Positions 177 to 60,107 of a stretch of DNA of 64,000 nt are shown piece by piece. The stretch spans positions 45,992,429 to 46,056,428 of the forward strand of contig OX485804.1 in the NCBI GenBank assembly GCA_950295325.1. The letters are read 5' to 3'. The stretch is from Polytrichum commune (taxonomy: Eukaryota > Streptophyta > Polytrichopsida > Polytrichales > Polytrichaceae). The notes under the pieces were generated by a model. That model was not told the DNA's origin and did no database searches. It was given only the letters and a program-made list of their open reading frames with translations. Both the position numbers and the translations under genes were made by a program. Numbering within the stretch: position 1 is the stretch's first letter; each line of letters opens with the position of its first letter.

Positions 177-3100
177 ATGGCTTCTTGTGCGACTAGGTGT
201 GTGCAATCTCTCCATCTGTCGCTGTATTTGCTTTTGTATGTTTTGGGTTAAGCTTTCAATGAATGAATGAATGCTGCTGGGATTTCGAATTTTGGATCTG
301 GTTGAAATTTCCCATGTGAATTTGCTCAATCCTGGATGCAATTTGTGGGACTTTGTTCAAGTGCACGTGATTGGGATCATTGTCAATGCCTAGTCCATGT
401 GGAGCTTCATCGTCCTACATGATTGACATGATGCTTAAATTTTATTTTTTTGTTGAGGATCCTCGATTGCAAGATTTTTCCTGTTTTTTAATGGCCGGAG
501 GCTGGACAATCCCAACCCTAGACTCCAGTGCTTTTGTTTTGTTTTTTTTTTTTTGTTCTTTTTGTTTTTCCAATTGACTGTCACAAATTTCACCCATCAA
601 GGGCAGATTTGTTTCTACAAAGAAAACCTATGTGAAGGCAATTGGTGACTCCTTGATGGTCGCTGAGGAATACAATTAGGCTTTGAATTACCTGCGGAGA
701 TTTTCATATGTATTTTCTGCTCTAAGTTGTTTAGATTGTTTCTTACACGATGCATTTTGTATAGTGATGTGTATTTACATGACATGACAATGACTGGAGA
801 ATGAATGATTCCAACCCTAGGTTTTCGTGTGTGTGTGTGTGTGAGAGTGTGGTTTTTTTTTTTTTTTTATAGTTTCCAACTCTCCTAAATCACTCACCTA
901 TCGAAATGCTTCAAGACAAATTTGTTTATGTAGAGAACACAATAATTATTTGAAAGCAACTGGTAACCATTTGATGGCTGCCGAGGAGTACAAGTAGGAT
1001 TGAAATTTCTTGCATAGTTTTTGTACATGTTTTTCACTCTTGTTTGGTGTACCGATGTGTTTTACATGACATGGCAGTTATTGGGCTATTAACAAGCTTT
1101 CTTTGTTGAAAACCTCATGGAAACCCTTGATGTGTGTTGTGCAGCGTGGGTTTAGGTGTCAATCTACAATTGCAATCGAGTCGAATTTTGGATCATCAAA
1201 CAAGGGGATTATCGTTGACACAAAGACAATGCAGGGGCCGATCATGCGAACAACCACATTGTACAGGGTTCAGTTTGCAGCAGAGGGTTCAACTACTTGG
1301 TAGACCTAGAAATTATTCGATTTTACGCCTTGTAACAAGAAATGTGGCCACACCAAATGACGATTCTTTGGCTGTTGGGCTGCGCTCTAGGGAGGGTGGT
1401 GTTAGGGGGCAACCATCAAAATATAGTTCCTTCAACAGCAAGCAAGCGGATATTACCGAGGTACTACCAGAATGAAAACTAATAGTATATTATTAGGTCA
1501 TGTAAATTCTGAATGATTCTAATCAGCATTTGACAGGGGATTCTGCTGCACCAAAGTATGTCTCATTTGAATCCTGTGTGCAAAAGTGACAAGGGTTTGA
1601 AGTTTTAAGGTAGACAATCTCACTTGTTTACTTTTCTTATTAGGTCACCTATATTTGAGTGGTTTGTGGTTTGGTGTGGCTCCAAATAATGGATGCCAAA
1701 AATAATGAAACTTGTCTGAAAGAGATTGGACTGTATGCTCAAAATATGACAATCATTTTAGGTTGAATAGTCAGCATAATTGGGGGGACCTTAATGACCA
1801 TTTAATGAGCTTGAGAATCTTCACTTTTAAATAAATAAGATCTTCATGTGAGCTCCGAAAACTACGTGGACAGTGGCTACAGCCTTTATTTGGATCTGCT
1901 AATCATCTTGCACAAATTGCATGTTTCATATCCAAGGAGAATATGGCTAGTTGGAAAAAGTAACCATTTAAGACCCATCTATCTTGTTGGTAGATGACCC
2001 AAAACCATCATGGGAGCCTGATGCTAAGGTGGTGGATATTCTCAAAATCAATATGTACTTAATGTGCAAGATTTAAGGGTGTTGGTTTTGGGTGCGGTAA
2101 ATGATTTTAGCATGGTCTACCTTATTGTACAAATGGAAAATAATGTTAGATTTATACCATGAAACTCAATTCTCTCTTCGTTTTGAATTGTCAATAGGGG
2201 CTTCTGTAATTGACGTAAGACCAACAAGAATAGTCGAGTTGCTTAATGTGCTCAGCATCTCAGAATGGATGTCCCATGTTGAACTTTCTTAAAAGTTTAA
2301 ATGTACCAAACTGTTGGCTCTTCAAATTGGCAATTTGTATGTCATCTAACATCTTAGGATAGAGATGTATCATCTTGTGAGGCAGTTGGGATTTGTGCGT
2401 GAAAGCGAAGTAAGGTCGAAGCTGGTGAGGAAACTAAGCGAGTCGAATCAGTACATTCGACACTTGCAAAAAGAGGTTTGTTGTTTGCTATTTCTTTGTA
2501 ATACAAGCCATTCCACGTGTCGCTGATAGCACCTTTGTACATAGTCTGTTCTTGGCTGTTACTGACTTTGGTGTTTGTTTTAACTTCAAGAAGGAGATAT
2601 AATACAAGGCTCAATACTTAGTTACTCAGATCGAATCATCTTGGAGCTTGCTATCAAAACTCAAATAGCTGGTCGGAATTGGAGGGAGATATTATGAACT
2701 TATTATTATTGTTCATTTCTAGCATAAAATGCAAAGGCTCTTAACTTTCAGTTTGATATCTTACCAGTTTTGATGTATCGCATTGTTTGCTGCATTCCCC
2801 CAGTTGCAAGAAAAAGAGGACTCATTATTAAATGCACGGAGTGAGCTTGCTGCATTTGAATTGGAACTTCAGGTTAGCCTTACACTATTTGCTTTTCCCC
2901 AGGGCCTATGCCTCTCCTAGTCTCAATCAAGAATGTGCTTCCTACATGTCATTTTAGGATCTAATTTTCTTATCTGTGCTTTCAGTTGGTGCAATTTTTG
3001 AACTGGTAGCGTAAGCTATAAAACTTGACTTACTGCATATTACAGCCAATTGGGCCAGTCGACTTGATTGAGGAAATAGAGTTATCTTCTAATTGAATGG

Positions 3101-6100
3101 TACTTTTCGTTGGGAGTTGGTCCTTTATGATATTCTATTGGTTGTGTTGTATACAAAATCATTAATTTCTTTCCACTTGTGGTGCATGCTCAGAGGTAGT
3201 GTTTGAATCTGAATTAAGAGCAACCTATTTCGGTTCATTGAGGGCCAAACTTATTTTAGCACCTCTTGGCATATCAAAATGAGTTAAATCTCAATGAACC
3301 AATATAGAAGGTTCTTGTTCAAAGCTCCACACTACCTCCAAGCATGCACTGAAAACTTACTGAAACATGGAAGGTGTTGTATGCAAAACAACCAACTCCC
3401 AATGAAAAGTTTCTTTGATTGAAAGGATAACTCTAATACTTATGTCATTTCCATCACCCTCACATAATTTTGGTCCACATCAGGTGCTTGTAAAGCTTGC
3501 ACAAGAGGTTGGCAGGCAGGGAATCCAACCAGGAACTCGAAAAATCAATGGTCGATACATACACTCACATCTTGCATCTAGACTTGAAGGTGAGAAACTC
3601 TATTCGCATCCATGGTCCTTCATCATTCTAGAACTTGACTTGAGTAGTCTAGGAGAACTATTAAATCACTTCACCCATTCCTCTCAAAACGTATCTTGTC
3701 ACCTTTTATTTTTGCAAATCCTTTGAGTTTTACTACTACGCTAAGAGACATTTTGTTCTAGCTCAAGGAAAACTGAGATAGTGGATTCATATGAGTTGAG
3801 CTGACATCTTTATCTGCGTCTTGTAGCTGTTGCTAGAGCAGACACAGTTTTGATTTTGAACTAGGTAGTATTTTGTCTTATATAGCTTTGCAGCAGAAAC
3901 CCTTCTCAACATAGAAAGAACTTAGTGATAGTAAAGCACCTGACTGGAAAGTCTTTCAAATTATTGAATGTGATTGCCCTATCAGTTCATTAAAGTTACT
4001 ATTGACTGTTGTAGCTCAGATAGGACTTCGAATTGTAGGTGACTGTATTGCAATTTAGTGGAAAGAATATTGTCACAACCTCCACTTATTTGTGGCCTTG
4101 AAAGTTCCTGTCAATTTGCTACTTTCAGCCTCACTCTCCGAACCCCTAAAAATGTATTGAGGGTGGAAAGTGTCTATCATGAAATGAAAATCTTATGTCT
4201 TAGTCTAACACAGGATCATTTAGAACTGTATATATTTGCTAAATGTTATGGTCACCTAAGCTTATACTTGAATCTCTTCCGATATATATATAAAATTTCC
4301 TTCATGTTTTCTGCAACATGTTGTAATATTGGTATCTTAAGTTGTTGCAGAGATGCAGAAGGTCTTATATGCGCGTATCAAGGACGTAGATGCTGTACGA
4401 ACACAGGATGTTGAACTTGTTTTCTTTGGAATGGCTGAGGTAAGAATCTTATGAAATCTTCATCAAAAACTTTCAGAGGCTGAATTATTACATTATAATA
4501 ACAAAGTGTTCAGATAACATCATCAATTTCAATTAATGTTGTGATAATTACATTACTTTGGTACATTATACTATTGCAAAAAAAATTGTTACATAAGATT
4601 CATACATATGTTACATGATAATTATATTATACGCTACTAGGCGTAATAACTACATTATATTGGAAGTTTGTGTTATTTGAATATAGAGATTGAACAGTAG
4701 AAGAGATAAAGCAGCAATTCACTTTTCTATAGATAGACCTGCTCCATGATGGCATCAATAACAATTGGAAAACTTTCACAATTTACTCATCAATCTTATT
4801 GTCAATCTTGAAGTAGAGTTTTAAGTTTTGTAAGGTTTTGATTGCCAATGATAATAAGATCAGGTTCCAAATGTGTCTCAGATAGATCACAATTTCATAA
4901 CCAAAGTTGATACCGTTGATTATTCAATTTGGCCAGGATGTACAAGTGATGGGATCATTTGATGGGTGGACCCGTGGAGAACAATTGTCACCAGAGAGCA
5001 CAGGCACCTTCACCAAATTTTCTGCTACCATAAAGCTTCGACCAGGCCGGTAAGACATGTCATAATTTTTTGAGTAAAAGTAGTGACCCTTCTTTGTGGC
5101 ATTTTGAAAACAAGGAACGCTGTCTGATTATGGGCTCTGAAGCACATATATGAGTGCATAGGTGACTTCTTCAAGTTGGGTATTTTGGAATGGAGATTGC
5201 ATAGTGTCATCCTCGCATTCAACATGTTCTGGTTGGGAGTTGGTTGTTTTGCTTACAATGCCTTCCATGTTCAGTAATTTTTGGTGTATGCTCGGAGGTA
5301 GTGTGGAGATTTGAACAAAGAACATTCTATATGGGTTTTATTGAGGGTCAAACTCATATTGAGGTGCTAACATGAATTTGGCCCTCAATAAAACGGAAAT
5401 ATGTTCCTCTTCGTTCAAATTCAAACACTACCTCCAGGCATGCACCACAAGTGGAAAGAAATAATCATTGTTGTATGCAAAACACGAAAAGTCCCATTCC
5501 ATTGAAGGATAACTGCAATATATTGCCCTAATTTTGTCAATCAGAGAGTCAGGGTTGTCAGATGTGACACGAGGGGGAGGGGAAAATTGTCTTGTAATAA
5601 ACTGGTCGACCAATAAGTTTGACCAGATCGTCAATAAGGTCTACTGGACATTTTTAGCAGTTGAGTGGAAAAATTCCAGTCGACTTGATTAGTTGACTGG
5701 ATAATTCAAAGTCTGGATGGTGAGAGGTGTAGACGTCCATGCAGCCACTAACATTTAAGGTAGATGGGTCTTAAATGGAAACTTTTCCGATTCACCCACT
5801 CCTAGGATATGAAACACGTGATTAGCACGAGATGGTTAGCAATTCCAAATCAAGGCCGTAGTCACTCATAATTTCAGAGCTCAAATGATATCTTATTCAT
5901 TATCAAAGTGAAGATTCTCATGTTCAATAAGTGGTCATATAGGTCCCCCAATTGTGTTGACTATTGAGCCTAGTTATCACAATTTGAGCACATAGTCCAA
6001 TCTCTTTTGAACACATGTCTTTTTGATATCCATTCTTGGAGCCTCCCTAACCACATACCGCTCAAATTTAGGTATGCGATAAAGACAAGTAACCGAATTG

Positions 6101-6370
6101 CGCATGTCTACCTTACTGGCAAAATCCTTGAAGGAGGATTATAGGATACATGACTTTCTTAAAAATATGTGCAATAGGGTACTAGAGAGTCAGGGTGTTT
6201 GTGCACGTAAGAATAAACTTTGACTTTGAGCTGAAATCCGGTCTTTTTGTGCAATTTGAAGGTACGAGGTCAAATTTTTGGTGGATGGAGAATGGCAAAT
6301 ATCACCCGACCTCCCAACAGTTGGTGAAGGCCTGACCATGAACAACCTACTAGTCGTTGAACGGTCTTAG
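177..6370 (+). CDS. PTST1: PTST1-like chloroplast protein (coiled coil plus CBM48)
   Basis: Exons joined by reading GT-AG sites: 177-196, 1145-1460, 2365-2475, 2804-2872, 3484-3589, 4351-4439, 4937-5049, 6262-6370. They total 933 nt, giving 310 aa with all phases matching. The first ~110 residues start MASCATS and are rich in Ser, Arg and Gln with few acids, like a plastid transit peptide. Residues ~113-180 form heptad-rich coiled coil (RSKLVRKLSESNQ, LLNARSELAAFELELQ). Next comes the conserved stretch KLAQEVGRQGIQPGTRKING. The C-terminal CBM48 spans ~225-308, with VMGSFDGWTRGE (Trp248), FTKFSATIKLRPGRYEVKF and VDGEWQISPDLP (Trp286), ending LLVVERS. In Arabidopsis, PTST1 binds GBSS by its coiled coil and delivers it to starch granules for amylose synthesis. 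AMPK-beta-like proteins share CBM48, but the whole architecture fits PTST1. The least certain joint is the exon 3 acceptor, which has three closely spaced AGs. Confidence 0.9.
500..1080 (+). repeat. tandem duplication inside intron 1
   Basis: Two ~300-bp segments in intron 1 are diverged copies: about 500-785 and 812-1080. Shared landmarks in the same order are a CCAACCCTAG block followed by a T-run, an ACAAATTTGTTT-like block, a TTGATGG(T/C)(C/T)GC(T/C)GAGGA block and TTTACATGACATG near the end. Divergence is high, so the duplication is old. No coding meaning is seen. Confidence 0.55.
1640..1985 (+). repeat. dispersed repeat family A, copy in intron 2
   Basis: Member of the most frequent repeat of the window. 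Core landmarks in order are a GGTTTGGTGTGGCTCCAA block, GAGATTGGACT, a block like TTGAATAGTCAGCATAATTG, GGGGGACC, GACCATTTAATGAGC and GAGAATCTTCACTTT. The right end CCATTTAAGACCCATCTA is the inverted form of the left end of the copy at 5757. Ends are approximate. Confidence 0.65.
3079..3433 (+). mobile_element. fold-back element in intron 4
   Basis: Two long arms face each other. The left arm (3079 to ~3240) starts GAGTTATCTT and contains GTTGGGAGTTGGT, GGTGCATGCTCAGAGGTAG and GGTTCATTGAGGG. The right arm (~3285 to 3433) contains these in inverted order and ends GGATAACTC. The transcript could fold into an imperfect hairpin with ~150-bp arms. A relative lies in intron 7. No transposase is present. 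Confidence 0.7.
5215..5514 (+). mobile_element. fold-back element in intron 7, same family as in intron 4
   Basis: The left arm carries TTGGGAGTTGGTTGTTTTGC, a GCTCGGAGGTAGTGTGGAG block and TTTTATTGAGGGTCAAACTC. The right arm carries CCCTCAATAAAACGG, CACTACCTCCAGGCATGCAC, TGTTGTATGCAAAACA and GGATAACT. The same words, in the same order, make up the intron 4 element. The left boundary is approximate. Confidence 0.65.
5757..6085 (-). repeat. dispersed repeat family A, copy in intron 7
   Basis: Reverse-oriented family A copy. It begins GGTAGATGGGTCTTAAATGG, then gives the inverse of the family core (AAAGTGAAGATTCTCATG, AGTGGTCATATAGGTCCCCC, CAATTTGAGCACATAGTCCA). It ends near CCACATACCGCTCAAATTTA. 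It sits between the fold-back element and the last coding exon. Confidence 0.65.
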
Positions 6371-6389
6371 GCTCCAACTGATTGCTTTG

Positions 6390-8120
6390 GTAAGGAAGTG
6401 TTGCAAGTTGAAATAAATAATTTCAACCAAGTTACTGAGGATTTTGTCCCACTCTACTTATATTGTGAAACAAGTGTGTTTTGCACTGACAATCAGTTCA
6501 CCAGATGTCAAGATGATTATTATATCTTTGGTGCTTCTATGTCTTTTGTTAATATTGAAATGTTGACTTGATTGTTGAAAGCCAAGGGTACTATACTGTT
6601 GATAGTATTTAGTGGCATGTATGCTATTTGCTGAGGGTTACACTAAATTGCCTAAAGACATAGAACTGGCATGTCTGCTAATTGTCAACTTGACACTATG
6701 TGTCATATATGTAGCTTCATGATGTGATTAAGTATTTGCAATATGACATTTAGTGTAGCACATTGGAGTGCTCGAGATGATAGTTTCATGTTTTAGTGTG
6801 CAAAGGAAGATATTATTGAGAATATTAATGCTGAGTGTCATGTGATTTAACTAATGGTCAAACTGTGTAACCTTGGTGTAGGCCTCATGATAAGGTTAGT
6901 GACACTATTAGGCCGGTGACATTACATACCAAGTTGACAAGAAAATTACTTGATGTGATGTCCTTCAGTTGACACTACAAGTTGCAAGAAATTTATAGAT
7001 GTGATTCTTTTTTCTTATGGCATTCATTTGTGGTGTACTTAACAGACCATGGGAGGATGATACATGAACCCCTCTCACTTTTAAGTGATGCATTAGGGCT
7101 TTGGCATTTTAGTTTTAAGCTTTATCCACAGGGTATCGCATAGTCATTTTCACCAGGTTATGAATTTGAAAGAATATACCCCCAACATCTACCATGAAAT
7201 GAAATTGATTTTAAAGTCCAGGAAGCCAAAAAGCTTATGGGACTAGAAGTACATCAAGGTTGTGTTGAAATGGTTGATTCCTTGGACTAAGAGTGCAATG
7301 GCCTCAAGAAGGCGAATATTGATTGGATGGTCCAACTAGAAGAAATATTTTGGGGACTACACTAAATATGCCAATTAGTGAGGGTGGTACTAATTCAAGT
7401 CTCACACACAATCTACCCAAATCTCAAGTTACTGAGGGCTGAAGTTGCTATTGAGTGACACTAAATTCATGACTACTCTAAATTCTATGCTCAAATACCA
7501 TATATCTCAAGAAAACTAGTGTGTGTTTGTGACTAGTGTGTGCCACATGCTTGTCAGTGAATATTACCAAGTGCCGGTGCTTTCATGCCAAGTGATGGTA
7601 CTTTATGTAAATAATGCCAAGTGTTGAGATGAACAATGCTTCCTAGATCTTTAGGTGACACTAATTCATAGCGTAAGGAACTTAATATCATCTTCACTAA
7701 TTTCCCACCCTCATTAAGTTCCTACTCACTAATTGGTATATATAGTGTGCCCAATACTACATTTTGAAGTAGGGAAGAAAATCTACCTCTAATGGACTTG
7801 TAGAGGGGGCACTTTGGCACAAAGCGTGCTTCATTTTCAACTATATTGTCAAAGCACAAATGGCACAATTCTTCGTTCAGTAGAGCTTGGGATAGTTGAC
7901 CACCACTCGTATTCAATGATGTGAGATGTAGTAAGCCGCACTTTTATTTTACATTGGGTTGATGTCAATGGTTGCTTTAAGCCCATCAGAGCAATGCCCT
8001 TGAAATCAAGCATTGTTTAAGTACCTTAAGCAATGTCGATGCATATTCATAGTCGAGAAAACCCTTGAGGTGATGGTAATTTCATTTCTTTCCATTGACG
8101 TTCCTGCAAAAATTTTACAG
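6390..8120 (+). other. probable 3'-UTR intron of the PTST1-like gene
   Basis: A good donor (TTTG/GTAAGG) starts at 6390, only 20 nt after the stop codon. A good acceptor (TTTTACAG/G, preceded by a T-rich tract) ends at 8120. The spacing is short enough to escape the usual ~50-nt rule of nonsense-mediated decay. The interior is AT-rich without coding signal and includes the CACTA-like element at 7360-7747. Splicing itself is inferred; it needs transcript support. Confidence 0.45.
7360..7747 (+). mobile_element. CACTA-like short element (family C2)
   Basis: The ends are inverted: CACTAAATATGCCAATTAG at 7360 and, on the other strand from 7747, CACTATATATACCAATTAG. Subterminal GTGAGGGTGG and CCACCCTCA are also inverted. 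The 388-bp element has no ORF of note. No clear 3-bp target duplication is kept. A longer relative is at 50773-51238. Confidence 0.55.
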
Positions 8121-9839: not shown

Positions 9840-10250
9840 AAGGATTAAGGTAGACAAACGGAAAACGGTGAATGACACACTACCGGTGCACTAGACTAGG
9901 AGTAGAATGATTATTGTGTGGACCCAAAACAGCTAATCGTAAAAGTGCTGGCCTAAAAAGGATGTAGTGATTGACTAGATAGGCCCCGCTTCACACCACT
10001 TGGGATCACTTTTGAGTACTATTGAGTTAACTGTTTTGTGTGCATTCGTATGCAAAGTAAGATATTTTGGATGGTCAAATTCAGAAGACTCGACTATACA
10101 AATAAAGGGTTTGACTCAAATTACGAAACAACTTGCATTCCTCATCATTTCCTCTACTCCTCCTATGAAAAATATTGCACACATTTCAAGTCACTCTTTC
10201 TAAACGAATCACCTTATGTTCACCAATTTCCGATTTTTCTACTTTATTGA
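9840..10250 (+). repeat. dispersed repeat family B, copy 1
   Basis: Shares ~400 bp with the opposite strand of 18650-19410. Landmarks are GACCCAAAACAGCTAAT, GGCCTAAAAAGGATG, GATCACTTTTGAGT, a TTAACTGTTTTGTGTGCATT block and GAAACAACTTGCATTCCTCA. Short peptides on both copies agree (KQLAFLI-SSTP), so it may descend from a coding element, but no known domain is visible. Confidence 0.6.
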
Positions 10251-14699: not shown

Positions 14700-15105
14700 G
14701 CAAAAGTGCCATAATTACTTGTACACACCTAAAAACTGTAGAAACACATAATAAGGTATGTGGCTCCATTGTCACGGGCACTTCCAACTCCACATATAAT
14801 ATGGACCAATGCATCGAATAAGGAATTGTCTCATATGGTTAGCAATTGTAATAATCGTGCATGGTCAATTTCCAAGTTTCAAAATCAGAGTCCACATGCA
14901 AACATTACATAGGTCAAAGCGAAGATTCTTCTTTTTCTTTTTTTAAGTGATCCTATAGACCCACCCAATTATGTCAATTGTTTATGGTTTATATATTCTA
15001 AACACATACAATTCCAAACTCATCGTGGTGCGTGTCCTTTTTGTATCCGTTTTGAAGTATAAACTTGCCATGCACCACTCAAATATAGGTGGTCGATTGA
15101 GAGAG
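14700..15105 (-). repeat. composite repeat ending in a family A copy
   Basis: Shares with 31175-31480, in the same order, TAAGGTATGTG, GGGCAC(T/C)TCCAAC and TTGTCTCAT/CGTCTCAT, then the inverse family A core. Here the family A part runs from about 14830 to 15105 with AAGTGATCCTATAGACC and CAAATATAGG. Confidence 0.5.
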
Positions 15106-15229
15106 GTGGCCACATAAGGACCAAGTACCTTACTAAGTAAAATATGTGGGCGGTTGTGGGACTTATGTGGTCACTCCTCCTAATTGGGCACTAGACATAT
15201 GGAAGAGCTTGTCATTTACACTGGCCACT

Positions 15230-18649: not shown

Positions 18650-19410
18650 ATGTTATGACAAAGGAGCCACACATTGTAGAAAAAAACAAATAACGCTCGG
18701 GGGGTTCACTGGCGAAAATTGTAGAACAACGTGCAATAAAAAATAGGGTCCAATATATTCATTGTAGATAAATTTTATAAAAAATGTACATGTAAAATAG
18801 GGGATTTTAAAATAATGAAACATGTTTATATGTAAAATACCATCACATATAATATTTTCAGGCTTTTTACATGTAAAATACCATCACCTTATAATCTTTT
18901 CTGCAAGGTAAATAACCCCCCCAATAAATAGGTCCCGAACGCACGTGTATGCAAAATATAAGAGGGAGTGAACCCCCCAAGAAATAACGATGAGAATAAG
19001 TTGATTCGGCCATAATGAGTAGCTTGAAATATGTGCAAAACTTCTTTAGAGATGGAGTAGAGGAAACGATGAGAAATGCAAGTTGTTTCATAATCTTATT
19101 CCTTGTAAACATATACTTATGTTTTTTCAAAGAGGCAAGTAAGTCAAACCCCTCATTCGTATAGTAGAGTCATCAAAATACCCTACTCTGCATACAAATG
19201 CACACAAAACGGTTAACACAATGACACCCAAAAGCGATCCCATGTGGTGTGAAACAGGACCCTATCCAGTCAATCACTGCATCCTTTTCAGGCCACCACT
19301 TTTACAATTAACCATTTTGGGTCCACATAAAAACCATTCCACTCTTAGTTTAGTGCACCAGCAGTGATATTTCACCATGTTCCGTATTTCTACCTTATCT
19401 TAGGTTAGTT
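18650..19410 (-). repeat. dispersed repeat family B, copy 2, split by a MITE
   Basis: Inverse of 9840-10250. Landmarks are GCAAGTTGTTTCATAAT, ACACAAAACGGTTAACA, AAAAGCGATCCCATGTGG, CTGCATCCTTTTCAGGCC and ACCATTTTGGGTCCACA. It is interrupted at 18696-18981 by an hAT-type MITE; the copy at 9.8-10.3 kb shows the unoccupied site. Confidence 0.6.
18696..18981. mobile_element. hAT-type MITE, copy 1 (286 bp)
   Basis: Ends CTCGGGGGGTTCACT and, inverted, CTTGGGGGGTTCACT. Exact 8-bp target duplication AAATAACG at 18688-18695 and 18982-18989, the length typical of hAT. It is nearly identical to 61657-61901 except for an extra ~41-bp internal duplication around ATGTAAAATACCATCAC. No transposase. Confidence 0.85.
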
Positions 19411-24304: not shown

Positions 24305-25105
24305 TTATGCTTATATTCACATGTCATATATGACATAACGTAATTGATATTTGAACCATTTTTTTTAATTTAAAAAATGTTTTTTAGAACCCGTCCAAAT
24401 TGAATTTCACACGTCCCAAAACCGGTTCATTTTCTAAGAACCCGTCCACTGAAAATGTTTTTTTTATGAACATGTCCCTAGACATGTTAGGGACCTTGTG
24501 AAAAAACACCCCTGCTCTCCATCCCTTGTTTGCACGCCACTATTTGCACATTATTTAACTTATTGTATCTTACCACACGAGGATATCATTTTGGTGAATT
24601 CTACATGTACACTACAATGTGTGAGTTGGTAGCTAGGGTAGGGATATAATGTGGATGGAAGGTATTGGAGCTTTTTAGGGGGACATCATTTTTGTACATA
24701 ATGAAGAGTACATGAAGGTGTAACTGCATTTAGGTCGCGATCTCACTCATGGTTAAGGAATAATTCGGTTATAGCTAACTAGAATTTGAGACCATTACTA
24801 GACTTAGGTATAATTAGCAATAGCTAAGCATCACATAGCTAACTTTGTGTGTGTGTGTGTTTTATAGAGATCTTTAACTAACTGTCCATGACGAGACAAC
24901 TCAACTAGGATTGTGGGGCCTATGATTGTCATAGATTGGGCTCGACACTTGTAAATGGGGTCATGTCCTGATGACCTCCCGTATCCAATGGGAAGTGTGT
25001 TCTAGGCCTCCCAATCCTAGTAATTCAAGAAGTCGAACTTATTAAGTAGGGCTAGTTAAGTGAAGATTTGAATTAGATGACCTTTATTAGATGACTGAAG
25101 TGTGG

Positions 25106-25495
25106 TTTTGAACCCAAGGCCTTAACCTAGTTCCCATGGGGATTCCGAGGTTAGGCCGCCTAAGGCCGGGAATAGTACTCGGATGGGTGACCTTCCAAGA
25201 ACTTGATTTCCAATGCACATGTCACCTATAATCCACCCAATCATAGCGGGGGTATCCGATTGAACTGGATATTTTCAACCAACCATGTGGGAACATGTCT
25301 CCCCCAAGGTGTCGGTCAGCTTGTCTACGCCCGTTCAAGCTGTTCACCTTCAACAGGAGGCAACAGTTGTCGGGGGGCCCCTCTAATTCTTGTGATGGTC
25401 GTTTTGGGTTCACGTATAGATCGAGACGGCCTCGAAAACGAAGCGACGCCAATATTTACGCGGGTGACAACACGGGGGTCGTCATTCTTTATTCG
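25106..25495 (+). repeat. 5S-rRNA-headed repeat, copy 1 (best preserved head)
   Basis: 25106-25219 aligns with plant 5S rRNA: TCCCAT, GATTCCGAGGTTAGGCC for the A-box zone, and TAGTACTCGGATGGGTGACC (25173-25192), which matches the internal pol III box C almost exactly. A ~275-bp unrelated body follows (CCACCCAATCATAG, GATATTTTCAACCAACCATG, GGCCCCTCTAATTCTTGTGA). The same head-body join is at 43577, so this is a repeat and not a 5S gene cluster. It could be a SINE3-type SINE or a Cassandra-like TRIM LTR. Confidence 0.75.
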
Positions 25496-26330
25496 ACGAC
25501 CGACTAGTAAAGTTACGAGTTGAGTTGATTGGCCTTTAAAAGAGTACTAATGAAACTGTAGGTGTGCGGAAATATCTCCCCTAGTGGCACTCCCATTGGT
25601 TATTAAGGTTACGGTGAACCGATGGTGCTCAAAGGAGGAGGGACATGTGGTATTATTAGTGGACCACCTTACCAAACCCACGGTTTGGCCCTCGGAATCG
25701 TCGCCAAAGGCGCATGTGGACTTAACTATCTCGGAACTCCACTCGGGACCTTCATGGTGATGTCGTCCTTCCTTTACCCCCCCCCCCCCCCCCCACCCCG
25801 GCCTCTAACTTATCCTCCGAGCCGGAAGCCGCCAACAAAACTTGTGTGCGGAGTAGCCCTAAAAGCTAATAGCATGAGCTCATCTCATAAGGTGAGGTCC
25901 GCCGAACGGGAAGGCCCTTTTGGCACATGAAGGGTGTTTGGGCCTTGTGAAGATCTAGAAAGATGCGACCGTATGCTTGTGTTTCTCGGTCCCGGTCACC
26001 GAGGTGGGAAGCCGTGAAAGGTAGCATAAAATAAGAGAGATAGAAGAGAGGGTGAGGTCCCAACGAGCGCGCGAGAGTACAACAACTACTACCCACTTGA
26101 TTCCTCACACCCGATCGGCAAGTGTGTCCACTTCCCATGTATGTACTTAGTTGTGAGCGATCGATTGGTGTGGTGGAAAAGCCACCAATGGCACTAACCC
26201 TCATTGCGGATATCCCTTATAATATGACACCGAACAAGGGAAAGACAACGCCTAAACTTAGAATTTGTGTGTCGAGCGTGGAAAGGTCAGACCGACATGA
26301 CGTCCTGTTCACCGGGGATGCTGTTGGTAT
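25496..26330. other. GC-richer stretch without recognised gene
   Basis: More GC-rich than its surroundings and with overlapping ORFs of 61-112 codons on both strands, none recognised. An 18-C run is at 25777-25794. It may be the continuation of the 5S-headed element or another mobile element; no ends were found. Confidence 0.4.
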
Positions 26331-27590
26331 TAGCACAGACTCTCGAGGAGAATGAACTTCGAATCTTGCCACAGCTGTATGTGCATATGAGTAGGTGGGT
26401 GGGTGTATATGGGCTGGCTACATGTCCATGCACTTGAATGTCACTTGAGAAGAAGTGACATTAAGGACATGCACTTGAGAATCATCGCAAATGGACACGC
26501 TACACTCCGTAACATGCATCAACCTCTTTAGTGTCACTTCTTCTCTTATATATGTATCCCAAAACTCTAGGGAACGAACGTTCTAAATTTAACACATGTT
26601 TAAGTAAGATTGGACTAAGTTCAAGTCCAGAATTACACACACTTAGCACTGACTTTCGAGGAAAATGAATTGTGTATATTGCCACAACTGTATGTATATG
26701 AGTAGGTGGGTGTATATGGGTTGGCTACATGTCCATGCACTTGAATGTCACTCGAGAAGAAGTGACATTAAGGACATGCACTTGAGAATCACCGCAAATG
26801 TACACGTTACACTCCGTAACATGCATCAACCTCTTTAGTGTCACTTCTTCTCTTATATATGTATCCCAAAACTCTAGGGAACGAACGTTCTGAATTTAAC
26901 ACATGTTTAAGTAAGATTGGACTAAGTTCAAGTCCAGAATTACACACACTTAGCACATATTCGCGAGGAAAATGAATTGTGTATCTTGCCACAACTGTAT
27001 GTATATGAGTAGGTGGGTGTATATGGGTTGGCTACATGTCCATGCACGTGAGAATCATCGCAAATGTACATGATAAACTCTGTAACATCAACCTCTTTAA
27101 TGTCACTCCTTCTCTTATATCCCAAAACTCTAGGGAACGGATGTTCTCAATTTAACACATATCTAAGTAAAATTGGACTAAGTCCAAGCCCTGAATTATG
27201 ACATTCTAAACTCTATCATAGGATCAACAACACATGCATTTCTAATCACCACATGCCGTTGGTGACAACGGCACATGCAATCACTTAGCACATACTCTCA
27301 AGGAGAATGAACTTCGAATCTTGCCACAACTGTATGTATATGAGTAGGCGGGTGTATATGGGCCGGCTACATGTCCATGCACTTGAGAATCATCGCAAAT
27401 GTACACACTAAACTCCGTAACATCAACCTCCTTAATGTCACTTCTTCTCTTATATCCCAAAACCATAGGGAATGGATGTTCTTAATTTAACACATATTTA
27501 AGTAAAATTGGACTAAGTTCAAGTTCATAATTATAACATGTTGAACTCTATCATAGGATCAACAACACATGCATTTCTAATCACCATAAC
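26331..27590 (+). repeat. four tandem repeats of ~310 bp
   Basis: Units start with TAGCAC(A/T)-type words at 26331, 26644, 26951 and 27286. Each contains CTTGCCACA, GAGTAGG(T/C)GGGTGTATATGG, GGCTACATGTCCATGCAC, AGTGTCACTTCTTCTCTT or a variant, CCCAAAACTCTAGGGAACG, and AGTAA(G/A)ATTGGACTAAG. Units 1 and 2 are closest; units 3 and 4 lack the GAAGAAGTGACATTAA part and carry an added tail (ATCATAGGATCAACAACACA). Confidence 0.85.
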
Positions 27591-31480: not shown

Positions 31481-31789
31481 AAGTTAGATATTAATCGGAA
31501 TTAAACCATGCTTCCTCTCTCTTACCAACATATTTAGTTTGATAAACTCAGGCGAAGCATTGTCATTGATATTACTAGGATGGAACAATGTTACCCTTTA
31601 TTGATCCAAGTGGCCAAAGTACATCAGGGTGGACTATGGGCACACTTCCATATGTTGGCAAAGTCTGGAAAAATCACCGGACAACAATTTGGACCCCCAT
31701 CCGCATGAAAGTGTGTACTAACTTTCCTTATAAAACAAAAATTTGGTAGGCAACACAATTGTAGGGGCAAGTTCAAGTAAGGTAGATGT

Positions 31790-32770
31790 ACCAATTCCAA
31801 CATAGCAATAATTAATATGGACACCTATATTCCATGTGGTTAGGTCAGGATCCCAAAGCATACACCAAAAAAATGTGTGTTTTAAAGAGATTGGAGTGTG
31901 TGATCAAAATATGCTAACCATTTTTGGCTCAATAGCCAACATGATTGGGGGAACTATATGAGGGTGCAAGCACGGTAAAGTGGACAACTCATGATCCATG
32001 CCTAGTGTTAAGTGAAAGTGATTTAATTATATGTACTAACTTTGAACTGTGTGGAGAAAAAAATCATAGACATTTAAAAAAACATATTAATTTACAAAGC
32101 CAAGCAATTTATGATGACAAAAAAAGTTCCAAGAAAAATCTACATATTTTAGAAGACAATGCAAGTGGTGTGCAAGTAGGTGATATCGAATAAGTGATTG
32201 TTTTAAATTTGTTCAAAATATGATATAATTACATTATATTGATGTTTTTCTACAAAGTTTTGTGATGATGCTCTCAGGTAGATAATTAATTAAAGGAATA
32301 TAAAGAAAAATCCAACTTCAAAATAGTTAAGGTCATGAAATCTATGTTCAAAACCAAACTCAACCATTTGCTTTTGAGCATCACTTTTGATGCTCAATAT
32401 TGAAGATTTCAACTTGATATTCTACATTTGAGTATTTAACATAACAATAGAGGTCATCATAAAAAAAAATTACAATTTAAATAACATTTTGCTACTACTT
32501 GTAGGCCTTTGACCAAAATCATTATGGTTTTAGTATACCGGAGCACTTTTGTGGTCCACTTTACCATGCTTGCACCCATGACCACTTAATGAACATGAGA
32601 TTATTAACTTTTATAGTGCATAAGATATTCATATAAACTCCAAAATTATGAGCAAATGTCTATGGACATGATTGAGATTTGACAATTATCTCACACTAAT
32701 TGTGTGTTCCACATCATACAAGAAATGGGTGCATAGAGAGAAAATAATCCAAATAACACACATCTACCCT
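31790..32770 (+). repeat. family A copy split by a 616-bp insertion
   Basis: The left part, 31790-31961, ends ...CAACATGATTGGGGGAACTATATGA. The family continues at 32578 with ATGACCACTTAATGAACATG and ends near ACACACATCTACCCTA at ~32770. Other copies read straight across this point, so they give the empty-site sequence. Confidence 0.7.
31962..32577. mobile_element. 616-bp TIR element inserted in a family A copy
   Basis: Inverted ends of 24 bp with one mismatch begin GGGTGCAAGCACGGTAAAGT and (other strand) GGGTGCAAGCATGGTAAAGT. Flanked by ATGA on both sides (31958-31961, 32578-32581), giving a 4-bp target duplication. An 82-codon ORF at 31945-32193 starts just outside; its latter part resembles the ORF at 48361-48684. 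Superfamily unknown. Confidence 0.8.
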
Positions 32771-33699
32771 ATGAGGATGGATACTTGACCTCCATTATTT
32801 TGCAAACTTTGGAAAATGACTTTCACTCTAGCAAAACTTGATTTGCATAAATATGCTTGTTGATGAACCTCATAATGTGTAACCCACTGCTTGACCAGTT
32901 GCACAAATGTCACGCCTCAGATATTTAGGACTTTAAAACCTTATTTTGAAATTGCTTCATAAAGGGTGGGGATGAAATTACCTCTAAGCGGTATCCTCTT
33001 CCAAGTTCAAAAAACACCTTTACGTAACCACAATAGAATTTCACGTTTCATATTCTAAGTTTTTGAATTCATGAATTATAGTTCAAAGTATCCTCTTAAA
33101 AATTTGAGTGTTGGATGCTCAAATACTACAAGATTGTGTTCCCTTAAAATTCTATTCTCACCGTTAAGTGTCTTAGAGTAAATAGACTTAAATTTCTCAA
33201 TTATAAAGTTTTTCATAAATATGGGGTTGAGTAGGTTCATCATTTCTATAGCCAAGTCCCAAAGTCCAACTACCCTAACTTTAATTCCAAAATTCAGTTG
33301 GTCATTACTTCTCAAATTCTCCTTATAATTCATTGATTGTAAAATAAGGGATGTCCCCTCATTAAATAATAAACTTTCTTTGTTATAATTCTTCCTATCG
33401 TAGTTTAATTAATATCTTAGCACATTTCCACGTGTGGGGGGACAAACGATATGACCCACTCGGCAACCTCCCATTATTTTCTTGTCATCTTTGAGTCACC
33501 TTTCCAATCGATGGCCTTCCATTGAGATGATTTGACTTTCCCTACCTTGGACTTGTTTCTTGAGTATTCATGGTCTTTAATCTCAAGTGTCCCCACGACC
33601 TTCTCCTCTTATACGGGTCCGGTAATTTTCCAAGTTTTTATGTTTTAACACCTTTGATGAAATTTTCAAAGTACTAAGGCCAAATGATTGGTCAATCTC

Positions 33700-34505: not shown

Positions 34506-35224
34506 TAAGGGAACTATGTCGTCCTCCCATGGCTCTCAATAGCCTTTGTTTTCCAGCTCGTTGCTCCTTGCAGGTTTCTGCATTCTTTTGTTCGAATTGT
34601 CTTCACGTTGTGGCTCTACATTGGCATGGACCCAATATTGTTATATGTTATAGTAATATGGGCATATTATAGACCTTGCCCAAATTTTTTATTTTTTATT
34701 TTCTAGAATTTCAAGATACAAAGCTCAATAAATATCGTTTTGCAACATTCAAAATGCATGGGCCAACCCTTCTTGTGAATTTAAATATACTTCACCGTTA
34801 TCATCGACGTTATTACCACGACCTCCAAACATCTTGTTGGCCGAGAACTCCATGTGGAGGAGGAAATAGCCCAACATGCAAGTTGGAATGTAGTTACCTT
34901 GTCACTTACCCATTTGAATGATGCATGAGACTTGAGTGGATTTATTATTAAACTTTCAATCTTGACATTTTGAAAAATGAAAATAAACCCAAAAATTTAG
35001 GGAAACTACGGGTGGAATTTGAATAACAAGAGCATGACATCATGAAAATTATGGTGTTTGATTTTGATTTTGATTTATTAAATCCTCAACTTGACACCAA
35101 CATGTTCATGCCAAGGTGAATATGTTTTTGAACTATTGAAATTCCGCTCATGGGTTTTCTTACGTGGTTTTTAACCAAGTATGTTCATTTTAGAATCGAC
35201 CATGTAACTACACGTTACACGGTA

Positions 35225-35555
35225 TATGGTTAGATGCGAATCTAAGAACAAACACCAAAAGATGATGTGTTTAAAAGAGAATTGAACCACTTGGTCAAAA
35301 CATGCTAACCATTCTAAGTTCAACAATCAACATGGTGGGGGGAGGAAGGGGGGCTATATGACCAGTTAATGAACACAAGAATTTTCACTTCGACAATGAA
35401 CAAGATATTCATATGCGCTTAGAGAATCATGAAATAAACGGCTACGAGCTTGATTTAATTTTGCTACTCGTCTTGTACTAATCGCAAGTTTCATAGATTC
35501 CTTCGAGAAGCGAGTGAAGAGAGGAAAGTGTTCAACGAACACACATCTACCTAAT
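35225..35555 (+). repeat. dispersed repeat family A copy
   Basis: Core: TATGGTTAGATGCGAATCTA, a TTGGTCAAAACATGCTAACC block, CAACAATCAACATG, GGCTATATGACCAGTTAATG and GAATTTTCACTTCGA. It ends with ACACACATCTACCTAATTAA. Confidence 0.65.
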
Positions 35556-35591
35556 TAAGTGCACATTCTACACCTACCTTACTCCCAACCA

Positions 35592-36250
35592 GAGTTCGGG
35601 AAGTTTTTGAAGCCTGTGTGGCTAATTGCCGGTAGTTGCTACGAAGGGTCGGATATTTTTCCAATTTACATCGGCAAGAGCCGGTCTTTTGTAAAATCAA
35701 TCGGCCAATTGCCTATATTTTCATATTTTCATTGGCCAATATCCGATTAAATGGAATTCATATCGGCACTAATTGTTTAAAAAATGTATGAAAAGTCATT
35801 AGAAATCATTTCTTAGTACAAAATCTTGAATAAGTGAAAAGAAAGGCATGTTCAAAACTTTAAATTTGAAGAGTTAATATCCTTGGTAGGAATTGAACCT
35901 AGCAATGCCTTCACTGCTTGAAGGCCAAGGGTCCCCCAATTCTTCATAGAAGCAATTGGATTTGGTCATGGAAAGGTTGCATAATTCAAAAAGTTTAAGG
36001 TTTAGGGTACTTCCTCAAGTGCATCATCAGATGCCCCAGACAAATAACGCTCTGGATGCTTCCGGCTGAAATCCAGTAACTCACAAGAAGAATCGGCTAC
36101 ATTTCCGGGACATTTTCTGGTCCTTCGGCTAATTGCCAGAGGATTGAAATCACAGTCGGATTGCCATCCAATGGTTGGAAATTTGGACCGGCCATGAGGG
36201 GAAATCCATCGGCTGATGATGAACTAGCCATCGGTTTTCCCCGAACATAG
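35592..36250 (-). mobile_element. Mutator-like non-autonomous element, copy 1 (659 bp)
   Basis: Inverted copy of the element at 51951-52698, with near-identity over most of its length. Ends GAGTTCGGGAAG and, inverted, CTATGTTCGGGG. Flanks CTCCCAACCA and CTCCCAACAT suggest a 10-bp target duplication with two changes. GCCGAT/CGGCTA words are dense near both ends. It contains the tRNA-like fold at 35881-35930. Confidence 0.75.
35881..35930 (-). other. tRNA-like fold lacking a D arm
   Basis: On the - strand, CCTTGG pairs with CCAAGG (acceptor-like). CCTTC/GAAGG closes a 7-nt loop AAGCAGT (anticodon-like, no T at position 33). GGTTCAATTCC fits the pol III B box and gives a 7-nt T loop TTCAATT. 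No D arm, so not a normal tRNA gene; probably a relic or chance fold kept in both element copies. Confidence 0.4.
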
Positions 36251-36609
36251 CTCCCAACATCCAAGGCCTCCACATGAGAGGCTTGCCTACCTTTTGACTT
36301 TGGGCCCTCACGGTCATGCACGTGCTCCTAAATCCGCTTAAGGAAAAATGATTTGGTCTTGTGCGGATTGTACATGTTCATCGAGCTATTCCATATAGCG
36401 CATATCCAATTGTTGTGTACGATGGGCACAACTCTACTCTCATCATACAACAGCTCAAGCCTCGAACTTAACCGAACCTTAGAAGCAGTTAAGACTTCGG
36501 CAAGATGCGCCTATACCGATGTTGGACCGGTATAAAGGTGAATGCATGGTATCAATAACCAACATCAATAATGGTATCAAAGAATCTATCTGTGGGTATC
36601 AAATTTGTA

Positions 36610-41640: not shown

Positions 41641-42579
41641 TTTTCTAGCATTAAAATAAACATATTTCAATTGTCTCAAAATATGAAATAAATTAAAAAA
41701 GCCATAGTACACATCAATCTATGAATATGTCAATTTATAATTCAAATGTACAGGTTGCCATGTGTTGGTACTACCCTACGGCACAGACCAAACCAGTTTC
41801 TAATAGTGTCGCTCCATAACTAGTGTCGCTTAGTTAAAACAAAATGAAAAGTACTTCAATGGTACCAGTAGCATCTTCCACACCTTCCCATAAAGTGAAT
41901 GTCTTACGTTTGACACTCTGATGTCACCCTTTGTAAACATAACTAATAGCCAAAAAATTGAGTACTTAGTATAACTTGTCCACACTAAATCCAACTACAT
42001 GCTTGCCCATCAAGATGGTGCCATGTGTTTTACATGGAAGTTCGTAGCAAGAAAAATCTCTAAGGAGATTTTTGTTGCCACTGTCAAAGTACTTTCCAAG
42101 CTTGTGCATCGCATAAGTTAACATATGTTTATGTTATTTGCAATGGCCTCCAACTGCATGAATTAAGTTAGCCAATCTCAGGTTAGGGTTACGATTGGCT
42201 TTGCCCCCCTCCAGTTGCCACCTGCTAAGCAGAAGCATAAACATATGTAAGGCGTTTCGTACTACAATAAGATAACCAAACAAGCAGCTAGTTGCAAGAG
42301 TGCTCTACCCTATTATTATCATGCACACATTGGTTGGTTCCGGTCAGATATATGACCAGGGCTTGCAACTTTGGGGCACTTTCGAGACCACTTTAGATCG
42401 ACGGTCATTTATGTATAATTGGACTTCACTTGAAGAATGAGATGTTAACACTGCAGGATCACGACACATATGTGGCCAGCTCCGGTTGGCTGCCACATTT
42501 TTGCCCGTTTTAGAGACCACCCTTGGTCTCTTTCCTTAAGGCAACGCCAACATATGGCTAGAGCTTTGCAAGTGTCCAT

Positions 42580-42860
42580 AGGTAGATGTACCTCATTCAA
42601 TTATTTCACTTAATTGGACACTTGTATTTGTGTTGTATGTGGTTTTGGTGTGGCTCCAAGAACGGACACCAAATATACACGTGTTTGAAAGAGATTGGAT
42701 TGTGTGGTCAAGAAATAATAATCATCATGAGTTCGATAATCAACATAATTGAGGGGACCTATATGACCACTTAATGAGCAAGAGAATGTGCATTTTGATG
42801 ATGACTAATGTATTCATATGAGCTCCAGAAATTAGGAGGAAAATGGGTTCGTACCGCGTT
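42580..42860 (+). repeat. dispersed repeat family A copy
   Basis: Starts GGTAGATGTACC. Core: GGTGTGGCTCCAAGAACGGA, GAAAGAGATTGGATTGTGTG, GGGGACCTATATGACCACTT, then CATATGAGCTCCAGAAATTA. Confidence 0.7.
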
Positions 42861-43171
42861 GTCACACCGTACATTGTATCATCAAGTTATACTTAGTTGA
42901 CTCAAGGTGCTGTACAAAACCACTTCAAATGTACTTCTTGCAAAGTCTTGCAAAACAAATATGAACTCTTTGACATTGAAGGATTACACTTCGACATTGT
43001 CATGTCCACATGGGTAGAAAGAAAAGAAAAAATAACGTCCGTATCTTGGTACCGGCATGAATGTGAGCCCGTTAGCCTTGTATTGATCACGGTGTACCGT
43101 GATGCAATATAAGGTGTTTTGCCTCCATGGGGAGGTGGGCTCTAGTGTAATATTAAGCATATCTAACCTCT

Positions 43172-43540: not shown

Positions 43541-43576
43541 TGCACATAATAGGTTCTTATTCTTCTTCTTCGAGGC

Positions 43577-43975
43577 TTTAAACTCAAGGCCTTAACCCAA
43601 ATCCCATGGCAACTACGAGAGTGAGTTGCCTAAGGTTGGGATAGTACTTAGATGAATGACTTTCCTAGCACTCGATTTCTAGTGCATCCTAATAACCACC
43701 TTTGGTCCACCCAATCATAGTGGGGGTATCTGGATGACCCGGATATTTTCAACCAAGCATGTGGGACCCTAGGGGGAGATAGGTGTTAGCTTGCTTGTCC
43801 GAGCATGTTCAAGGTGTTCACCTCCAAAGGAGGTAGTAGTCGTCAAGGGCCCTCTAATTCTCGTGATGCCCGTTTCAAGACTACACATAGATTTAGACCA
43901 ACTAGAAAAGACAGCAACGCCACAATTCACGCTAGTGGCAACATATGAGTTTTCTTTCTTTCTTTCTTTCTTTCT
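43577..43975 (+). repeat. 5S-rRNA-headed repeat, copy 2, with (TTTC)n tail
   Basis: Head 43577-43689: AAGGCCTTAACCCAAATCCC, GTTGCCTAAGG, ATAGTACTTAGATGAATGAC and the 5S-like end AGTGCATCC. The body matches 25220-25495 (CCACCCAATCATAGTGGGGG, GATATTTTCAACCAAGCATG, GGGCCCTCTAATTCTCGTGA). It ends in a (TTTC)n run at 43949-43975, like a SINE tail. Confidence 0.72.
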
Positions 43976-44047
43976 TCCCTTTCATGTAGACTTTCTCTAA
44001 GGTGATCATGCTCCCAATCCTCATATTTTGTGTGAAATAAATATGAT

Positions 44048-44335
44048 GCACACTAGCCCTATTGTCCACCCAATCATTGGGGGGGGGGGGGGGGGTCCAA
44101 GTGAACTGAATGTTTTCAACCAACCATGCAAGGACGTAGGGGTTTGCTTTGGAGAAGATGGCTTGTCTATGCCCATTCATGGTGTTTGCCCTTGACAAGA
44201 TGCAATAGTCTTTGAAGACCCTCCAATTGTCATGACATTAGTTTTGAGATTCCATATAGGGTTTATACCAACTTGAAGATGAAGGAGCACTATAATTTAT
44301 GTCGGTGACGACATCTGAGTTATTTTGTCTTCTCT
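44048..44335 (+). repeat. headless copy 3 of the 5S-headed repeat
   Basis: Begins at the equivalent of the 5S 3' end (GATGCACAC), then CCACCCAATCATT, a 17-G run (44079-44095), TGTTTTCAACCAACCATG, CCTCCAATTGTCATGACAT and ACATCTGAGTTATTTTGTC. It follows copy 2 after ~70 bp in the same orientation. Confidence 0.65.
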
Positions 44336-44639
44336 TTGTGTAACAACATGTTTCGTTCACAACCTTTTAAAGTGCTTGTGTATGATAGACATAGTGTTTT
44401 CTACTTTGGCTCCAATTAAAGAATGTCCTTGAGAGGGCGCCATATGACACAAGTTGTTGGTATAGGACAAGTCACAAAGACCACTCTAGTTAACATGGTA
44501 CACAAATTTTAATGTCACACTAAATAAGATGTTTAGTGTAGTAACGGTGGTTGATCTTTTGTAACTCACATAGATGAGTGGTTGAACGTACACAAAATAA
44601 GTGGCCTAATGTAGTTAGGTCTTTTTTGGGAAAACCTAT

Positions 44640-44990
44640 AGGAGAGTAATATGTGGTTAGGTTTGGATCTAAGAACGGACACCAAAAGACATGTATTTAA
44701 ACAATATGATAATATGCCAATTTTATTGATTACTCTAGGTTCAATAGTCAACATAAAGGGGGAGGGGTCACCTATATGATCATTTAGCAACAAAGAGAAT
44801 CTTCAGTTTGATTATGAAGAAATTGTTTAATCAATGAAGAAACACTTGATTTCCTATCATGATACTTATACAAGCTCCTAAAACCATGAGGGAAATGGCT
44901 ATGACCTCCAACTGGATTTGTCTATTAACTCACAATAGGTAATCCAATGTTTAATATCACATAACAAGTGGGTGTATAGCTAAATTTATC
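44640..44990 (+). repeat. dispersed repeat family A copy
   Basis: Core: GGTTAGGTTTGGATCTAAGA, ACGGACACCAAAAGACATGT, GGTTCAATAGTCAACATAA and CCTATATGATCATTTAGCA. A ~20-bp insertion repeats AAACA/CACTTGATT words. A small CACTA-like palindrome (CACTAAATAAGATGTTTAGTG-like) precedes it at about 44518-44540. Confidence 0.6.
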
Positions 44991-45140
44991 CATTTTAGGC
45001 CCACATTTATGAGATTAGGGCTAACGTGTTCTTCTTTTGTCGTGCTTTGGCTGAGATGTTTGGATATTCAATATCTTGCTTTGGCAAAATACCATGAACA
45101 CCACTTGCATATTTATTTTCATTGATCAACCTCGCTATGA

Positions 45141-49810: not shown

Positions 49811-50384
49811 GCATACAAGTGCTCCCTAAAATGCATTGTAAGAAATCTAGTTAACTATAGTTATTTTGGCAGTTCTTGATTATTTATTTATTTTAAATTG
49901 GGTGATAAATGAGTAGCTTCAATCCTTGACCTGTATTTGAGAAGAAGGTGCACAAAATCCAATAAAGGTTTGGTATAGTGAATAGCCATGGATTGGCATG
50001 AGCAAAGTAATCAGCTACAATTGTAGTCTTTCATAGCAAAGGACAGAGCTTCATGGTTCTACCGTTTTCTTGTTAATGTTGTATACTGTTCATGTAGCCT
50101 ATATGATCTTTGTTGGTGACAAATGAAATCTTTAGCGAGAGGTTATAGCCTTGTGTAATTTCAAATAGTAAGTGACACTAAATATCGTAAACAATGTAGT
50201 GGAAATGTAGTAGTTTCATGACACAACAATCTAACATGAATTGACCATAATAGCCCTTATCATTATGGTCACTTCATGTTAGATTATCTTGTCATGAAAC
50301 TACCACATTTTTACTGCCTAGTGTGAAAGGGTAAGTGATCCTAATTCGGTTCTTCATCTTGAATGGGTACTTGTTGTTGAGTGG

Positions 50385-50720
50385 TGTGAGGTTAGATATG
50401 GGTCCTAGAAAGGACATGGAAAACACATATGTTTAAGAGAGATTGGACTACATGTTAGAATTTTGTCAATAATCAAGAGTCCTACTTGTACGATCATGTA
50501 CTAAGAGAGACAATCTTCACTTTGGCAATGAATAATTCTTTCATACAAGTTTTGGAGTTAATAAAGTTTTACTTTAATAAGAGCTAATTCTTAATTTCTT
50601 TCTATAGTAATATGAAAAGGAGAAGGAAACACATTCACACTGCAACAGATAATGCTATCTAAAAATTATTTTATCACATACTTAGATGGGTGACATATAC
50701 TTGGGCCCTCAGGATGAGAT
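50385..50720 (+). repeat. dispersed repeat family A copy
   Basis: Core: GGTTAGATATGGGTCCTAGA, TTTAAGAGAGATTGGACTAC, GATCATGTACTAAGAGAGAC and AATCTTCACTTTGGCAATGA. The middle is shorter than in other copies. Confidence 0.55.
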
Positions 50721-50772: not shown

Positions 50773-51238
50773 CACTGATTATTCCATTTAGTGTGTCTGG
50801 TTCTAGTTCCCGAAACACACATTATTTTACCAAATCTCAAATTTATTAAGGGCTACAATTTTTACTAAGTGATATTGAATTCATAAATACATGCTCATTT
50901 ATCATACATTTCACGAAAAAATAATGTTTGTTCTAAGGTGTTTGTAGATTGCATAATATGTCATGGTGAGCTTGAACATGCTTCTTCTTCTTCTTTCTTG
51001 TCGGCGCCACTCACTCATGAGAGGCATCTCCTAACACTAAGAAAATGAAGAGAGTTTGCATTGAGAGTTTCCAACACTTTGACACTTTAGGCTCCCGAAA
51101 ACCCTAGATCTTGTGGTGGCACTAATTTCACAACATAACGAAATTTAGTATCACCTTCACTAATCCCACCCCCCCCCCCCCCCCCGGACACACACACACA
51201 CACTACTAGCCCACCCTCACTAAATGGGATACTCGGTG
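50773..51238. mobile_element. CACTA-like short element (family C2), copy 2
   Basis: Ends CACTGATTATTCCATTTAG and, inverted, CACCGAGTATCCCATTTAG. Subterminal CCACCCTCACT-type words, a 17-C run (51169-51185) and a (CA)n run lie near the right end. 466 bp. A 3-bp target duplication is not clear. Confidence 0.55.
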
Positions 51239-60100: not shown

Positions 60101-60107
60101 TCTGATA

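Follow-up and report, generated by a model that had tools for sequence, protein, structure and literature searches.

What kind of element would carry 5S rRNA-derived sequence at its very front, joined to an unrelated body, in plant DNA? This question is raised by a dispersed repeat in the 64-kb stretch of Polytrichum commune DNA (contig OX485804.1) shown above, which we call the window throughout and which is both the scope of our analysis and the source of all three copies described here: copies A and B with head and body, and copy C with a body only (see the table below). An earlier note, made from the sequence alone, had proposed a 5S-headed repeat of this build at two places and likened it to short interspersed nuclear elements (SINEs) of the SINE3 type. 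Among the four explanations that we weighed, the best is probably, if far from certainly, that A, B, and C are ancient copies of a SINE3-type non-autonomous retroposon of ~390 bp with a plant-type 5S head.

Copies A and B lie 18 kb apart, each as a single copy, and are homologous along their full length with 70.9% identity across 395 columns (BLAST, E 2.5e-47), which bears out the proposal of a 5S-headed repeat with a conserved body at both places. Identity amounts to 82/112 columns in the head part (the columns before the start of C) and to 195/275 columns in the body of ~270 bp. Head and body have thus diverged at a similar pace, as expected of parts of one copied unit, and A and B are one repeat family in which the two form a single unit. 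Copy C is absent from the earlier note and was detected with a profile built from A and B; it starts 82 bp past the end of B and is identical to A in 174/276 and to B in 178/277 columns. It begins 4 to 8 nt upstream of the point where the fitted 5S head ends and thus no more than 8 bases from the head-body junction, which is what a copy truncated at its 5' end or an independently existing body would show. The possibility of a decayed 5S head upstream of C was rejected, since the fit there scores 8.0 and 96 random stretches average 13.7. With the body repeated in A, B, and C, a simple 5S pseudogene lacking any repeated body, one of the outcomes that the earlier note had envisaged, does not describe this locus. 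A 25-bp body pattern matches only the places of these three copies at up to 3 mismatches, no dinucleotide shuffle gets three matches, and neither three-sequence nor body-only profiles revealed any further copy in the window (next matches at E 0.39 or worse). Searches for exact body patterns in viral contigs and genome contigs as well as a blastn search of A against plasmids returned nothing, which is no surprise for a plant repeat in such collections. As a side observation, C holds a run of 17 Gs at 44079-44095 where A and B have a GGGGG motif, and other homopolymer runs of 17 to 18 G or C bases are found at 25777-25794 and 51169-51185.

The 5S origin of the head was assessed with plant (120 nt), conifer-like, human, fly, and yeast 5S sequences. 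Full-length plant 5S fits A end to end (76/123 columns identical) and also spans the head of B (80/131 columns). For the strength of this fit, we set aside random stretches that could include the copies and relied on a ranking of 1594 overlapping stretches from both strands and on 400 shuffles. In the ranking, A comes first with a score of 69.5 and B follows as the next separate locus (52.5). Mononucleotide-shuffled 5S sequences scanned over the window reach a maximum of 60.0, so that 0/400 attain the score of A and 9/400 that of B. The best unrelated 5S-like place (~5.7-6.0 kb, minus strand; 49.0) was discarded; it lies within another repeat family, and no copy of the body was found there. 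Box C, GTACTCGGATGGGTGACC, is exact in A at 25175-25192, where it matches the search pattern GTACTNGGATGGGTGACC for which 0.10 matches at up to 3 mismatches are expected in the window; apart from A, the pattern matches only at position 50678, with 3 mismatches. In B, no box C was found at up to 3 mismatches, so the survival of this box claimed previously holds for A but not for B, where it has decayed. Taken by itself, the box C part matches in the window at E 3.8e-5. Compared to the plant sequence, human (39.5), yeast (35.5), and fly (34.0) 5S score much lower on A, while conifer-like 5S scores higher there (75.0) and no better on B (51.0 vs 52.5); with a gain in A and none in B, we dropped any assignment to a plant group on this basis. 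Judged by sequence, these results strongly suggest a 5S origin for the head of A. The head of B is consistent with 5S, a resemblance that is weak when taken alone, and its rank is not independent evidence because B is homologous to A. The copies look ancient and dead, given the decay of box C in B and the 47/123 columns at which A departs from plant 5S.

It had also been claimed that similarity between copies begins at the 5S head, and the left edges agree with this. The A-B similarity starts at 25104 and 43574 by BLAST, and the three-copy profile places its start at 25101 and 43571; fitted 5S position 1 falls at 25104 in A and 43571 in B and thus coincides with the edge in both copies. At the right edge, all copies are T-rich, with CTTTATT in A, the anticipated (TTTC)n ending in B (6.5 units), and a looser T-rich stretch in C. 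Copy A is flanked by a candidate target-site duplication of 17 bp with 14 matching positions; random flank pairs are as good in 10/4000 cases, or in 14/3000 with gaps allowed, and with one flank fixed 6/3000 and 3/3000 equal it. The likeness of the two flanks stops outward and at the head, so this repeat behaves as a target-site duplication and not as a tandem spacer.

Several observations weigh against a SINE3-type retroposon. Just two headed copies were seen within the 64 kb, and no 5S in the window reaches the Rfam gathering score: with thresholds relaxed, the Rfam 5S model scores A at 17.4 bits (E 1.3), short of its gathering score of 38, and reports no match in B up to E 5. Of the three copies, only B carries the (TTTC)n tail. 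Between the left repeat of A and 25104 there is a gap of five bases, and the right repeat may owe its first 7 bases to the tail of the element, as the A-B similarity runs to 25493. The duplications at B (192/4000 and 92/3000 random pairs as good, in TTC-rich surroundings) and at C (192/4000 and 256/3000) are unconvincing, and one at C that looked good by eye (TTTGTGT...) was rejected as not significant. TTTT, a possible weak stop for RNA polymerase III (Pol III), occurs in all three bodies (25272-25275, 43746-43749, and 44113-44116), and no partner among long interspersed nuclear elements (LINEs) was identified in the window. The likeness to SINEs that was noted at the outset is thus supported in part, by the terminal 5S sequence, the lack of paired heads or a convincing primer-binding site (PBS), and the candidate duplication at A, but not by the flanks of B and C, and one good duplication plus one simple tail make thin support for a claim at the level of a family.

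If A, B, and C are nevertheless copies of a SINE3-type retroposon, Pol III would be recruited by the internal 5S promoter in the head (box A, intermediate element, and box C) and would start at 5S position 1. Read-through from head into body seems plausible because the first ~55 nt after the 5S part are free of TTTT in A and B. Reverse transcriptase encoded by a LINE would then recognise the 3' end of the body and use nicked chromosomal DNA for priming, with target-site duplications as the outcome, and body-only copies such as C could stem from incomplete reverse transcription or represent the 3' end of a helper element. Transcription by Pol III, LINE-dependent reverse transcription and insertion, and the size of the family are what we infer beyond the copies themselves. 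A plant 5S gene may even have independently founded a LINE-mobilised SINE family, i.e., a plant-born SINE3 lineage, though on this further step we lean slightly toward doubt.

The 5S-bearing element known from plants is Cassandra (PMC10853983), a terminal-repeat retrotransposon in miniature (TRIM) with 5S sequence inside its long terminal repeats (LTRs), and a Cassandra-like TRIM or solo LTR moved by the LTR-retrotransposon machinery has to be considered. The anatomy of our repeat fits a SINE3-type retroposon better, because its 5S head stands at one end, neither a paired head nor a PBS was found, and B and C do not look like a pair of LTRs. In the 81 Cassandras of PMC10853983, the 5S region lies inside the LTR and never at its end, while here the repeat opens directly with 5S, at whose first position the A-B similarity begins. 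Copy C does sit roughly where a second LTR might follow B, but it is headless and resembles B less (178/277 columns) than A does (195/275). No second 5S head follows A or B, although solo LTRs would likewise be unpaired, and 5S sequence inside paired repeats around a PBS, the alternative build named in the earlier note, was not seen at A or B within the window. A Cassandra query described in PMC7215508 expects the PBS 5 to 200 nt downstream of box C. There is a weak PBS-like GGGTATCCGATT (8/12) at 25250 in A, yet the best matches to the PBS TGGTATCAGAGC within 700 bp after box C, 8/12 in A and 7/12 in B, are at background (237/300 random 700-bp stretches hold 8/12 or better), as is the window-wide count of 5 matches at up to 2 mismatches vs 4.06 expected, none of them inside the copies; a decayed site is possible. 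The duplication at A measures 17 bp vs ~5 for Cassandra-like elements. Overall, we consider a Cassandra-like origin unlikely. As background, Cassandra is described as absent from gymnosperms (PMC10853983).

Two further explanations dispense with a 5S-headed SINE. In one of them, A, B, and C belong to a short dispersed repeat, SINE-like or of another kind, that is unrelated to 5S and owes its 5S-like 5' part to chance, mostly near box C. The low Rfam score and the resemblance of B, dependent on A and matched by 9/400 shuffles, fit with this, as do the columns where A and B agree: just 52/85 match plant 5S, so the common ancestor of A and B would already have drifted far from 5S. In columns where A differs from B and 5S, B has the plant 5S base in 6/12, not beyond chance, and the same test gives 8/13 for conifer-like (p 0.035) and 9/13 for human 5S (p 0.009); showing no preference of plant over human 5S, it was dropped as evidence for a plant 5S. 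Chance resemblance seems nonetheless improbable considering that no shuffled 5S in the window reaches the score of A, that the fit runs end to end and starts at the left edge of the repeat, that the plant-type sequence is clearly preferred by score, and that the box C part is significant by itself. In the other explanation, the copies are dispersed 5S rDNA units or chance read-through retrocopies, i.e., 5S pseudogenes with their own spacer and no true SINE family. A 5S gene plus spacer would be of similar size, and in some gymnosperms the 5S units are reported to be rich in 5S pseudogenes (PMC6526317); only three copies were seen. A tandem unit would however run into the preceding spacer, while A-B similarity stops at 5S position 1; the headed copies are single and 18 kb apart, C is a body without a 5S gene, and, unlike a preceding tandem unit, the flanking repeat of A does not continue into the end of the body. 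We regard this explanation as quite improbable.

The remainder of the window is a repeat-rich, eroded region, given its many short old repeats of 68-82% identity and the single weak extra Pfam family, zf-RVT (E 0.0015), that a six-frame scan at E up to 0.01 found besides AMPK1_CBM. The AMPK1_CBM domain occurs in two plus-strand stretches (E 1.1e-9), the better one at 6260-6364, and ~2300-6400 of the plus strand appears to hold exons of a plant gene with this domain; upstream open stretches look like further exons. One of these (4901-5053), in the frame of the AMPK1_CBM stretch, contains QFGQDVQVMGSFDGWTRGEQLSPESTGTFTKFSATIKLRPGR, which we take to resemble plant PTST proteins and thus presumably belongs to a PTST-like starch protein; a PDB search with one exon of this gene was of no help (best E 0.18). 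Together with the plant-type 5S, the gene points to a land plant as host. A second family of old dispersed repeats, with ~200-430 bp per copy, has ten members with E values no higher than 1.5e-22 and another four that are weaker. A longer repeat at 35582-36255 and 51946-52708, in opposite orientation and 93-96% identical, is much younger than the other repeats. Direct repeats 43 kb apart (18693-18981 and 61654-61901) are 96-97% identical in two ungapped blocks, or 82% over 289 columns with gaps counted. In addition, 26330-27586 is locally duplicated in tandem (periods 307 and 335 bp), and there is an inverted repeat pair (9846-10217 and 18996-19397 on the minus strand; 74% over 404 columns). 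A minus-strand snoU13 match (E 1.8) was taken as chance.

Table. Features of the 5S-headed repeat and copies of a second old repeat family in the window.
Feature	Position	Strand	Basis or remark
Copy A, whole repeat	25104-25493	+	BLAST alignment with B
Copy A, 5S-derived head	25104-25217	+	Fits 5S positions 1-120; box C at 25174-25192
Copy A, body	25218-25486	+	Homologous to B and C
Copy A, left candidate target-site duplication, CTTTATTAGATGACTGA	25082-25098	+	14/17 identical to right copy
Copy A, right candidate target-site duplication, CTTTATTCGACGACCGA	25487-25503	+	14/17 identical to left copy
Copy B, whole repeat	43574-43964	+	BLAST alignment with A
Copy B, decayed 5S-derived head	43571-43690	+	Whole-5S fit; second-ranked locus
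Copy B, body	43691-43950	+	Homologous to A, 195/275 columns
Copy B, tail, (TTTC)6.5	43951-43976	+	Tandem Repeats Finder
Copy C, body only	44046-44333	+	nhmmer E 2.2e-34 for 44046-44326; to 44333 in three-copy profile
Copy of ~200-430-bp family	1571-1999
Copy of ~200-430-bp family	5740-6140	-
Copy of ~200-430-bp family	42558-42870
Copy of ~200-430-bp family	35220-35553
Copy of ~200-430-bp family	44604-45004
Copy of ~200-430-bp family	59880-60262
Copy of ~200-430-bp family	31771-31961
Copy of ~200-430-bp family	32577-32775
Copy of ~200-430-bp family	50331-50555
Copy of ~200-430-bp family	14820-15139	-

Similar to the repeat described here, known SINE3-type SINEs such as vertebrate SINE3/AmnSINE1, springhare Ped-1, lepidopteran HaSE3, and Aspergillus AfuSINE3 are short and dispersed and combine a 5' 5S head with an unrelated body, as described in the accessible parts of PMC5063351, PMC3747384, and PMC10886601. 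The decayed heads of A and B are ~60% identical to 5S, and the Aspergillus 5S-related SINEs show 50-65% similarity; AfuSINE3 itself measures 259-343 bp and has poorly conserved boxes (both from the accessible text of PMC5063351). Unlike these elements, ours has a plant-type 5S head, resides in a plant, and carries a body without known relatives. Plant SINEs derived from tRNA share the shortness and T-rich 3' ends, (T)2-5 in Au and (T)n in p-SINE1 (accessible text of PMC3747384), but have a tRNA head where our repeat has a 5S head; ARAGORN found no tRNA in the window, with no further test for a decayed tRNA-like part. In the literature that we searched, SINEs derived from 5S are described for vertebrates, Lepidoptera, and Aspergillus, and the 5S element described for plants is Cassandra. 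No plant 5S-derived SINE was among the literature matches listed, Repbase and most subscription papers being outside the search, so that such an element may have been recorded before. In its accessible text, PMC3095306 places 5S-homologous sequences in SINE3 elements, "including plants", and cites for this the reference that it also gives for Cassandra; PMC1297646 uses "SINE3" as the name of ~160-bp Arabidopsis elements with no head type stated there, and the AnnoSINE classifier allows for 5S-headed SINEs (PMC8825457). A 5S-headed SINE in a plant would be an unexpected host lineage for a known element type.

Compared to Cassandra, our repeat is likewise a putative plant mobile element with 5S promoter sequence, but this sequence is terminal and unpaired, and no PBS was found in the copies. 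The nemertean TRIM Ajax shares a decayed 5S-derived promoter part within a short element, yet it is described as having LTRs, a PBS, a polypurine tract, and 5-bp duplications and contains only the promoter part of 5S, while the whole length of 5S fits here (accessible text of PMC10886601). The same source speculates that Cassandra arose when a SINE3 inserted into an LTR. If our reading of A, B, and C as SINE3-type retroposons is true, a plant 5S-headed SINE would be the kind of donor proposed there for the 5S promoter of Cassandra, and 5S promoters would have been captured in plants by LINE-type mobilisation, too. This idea of the origin of Cassandra would then become directly testable by comparing the heads, junctions, and host range of the two kinds of element.
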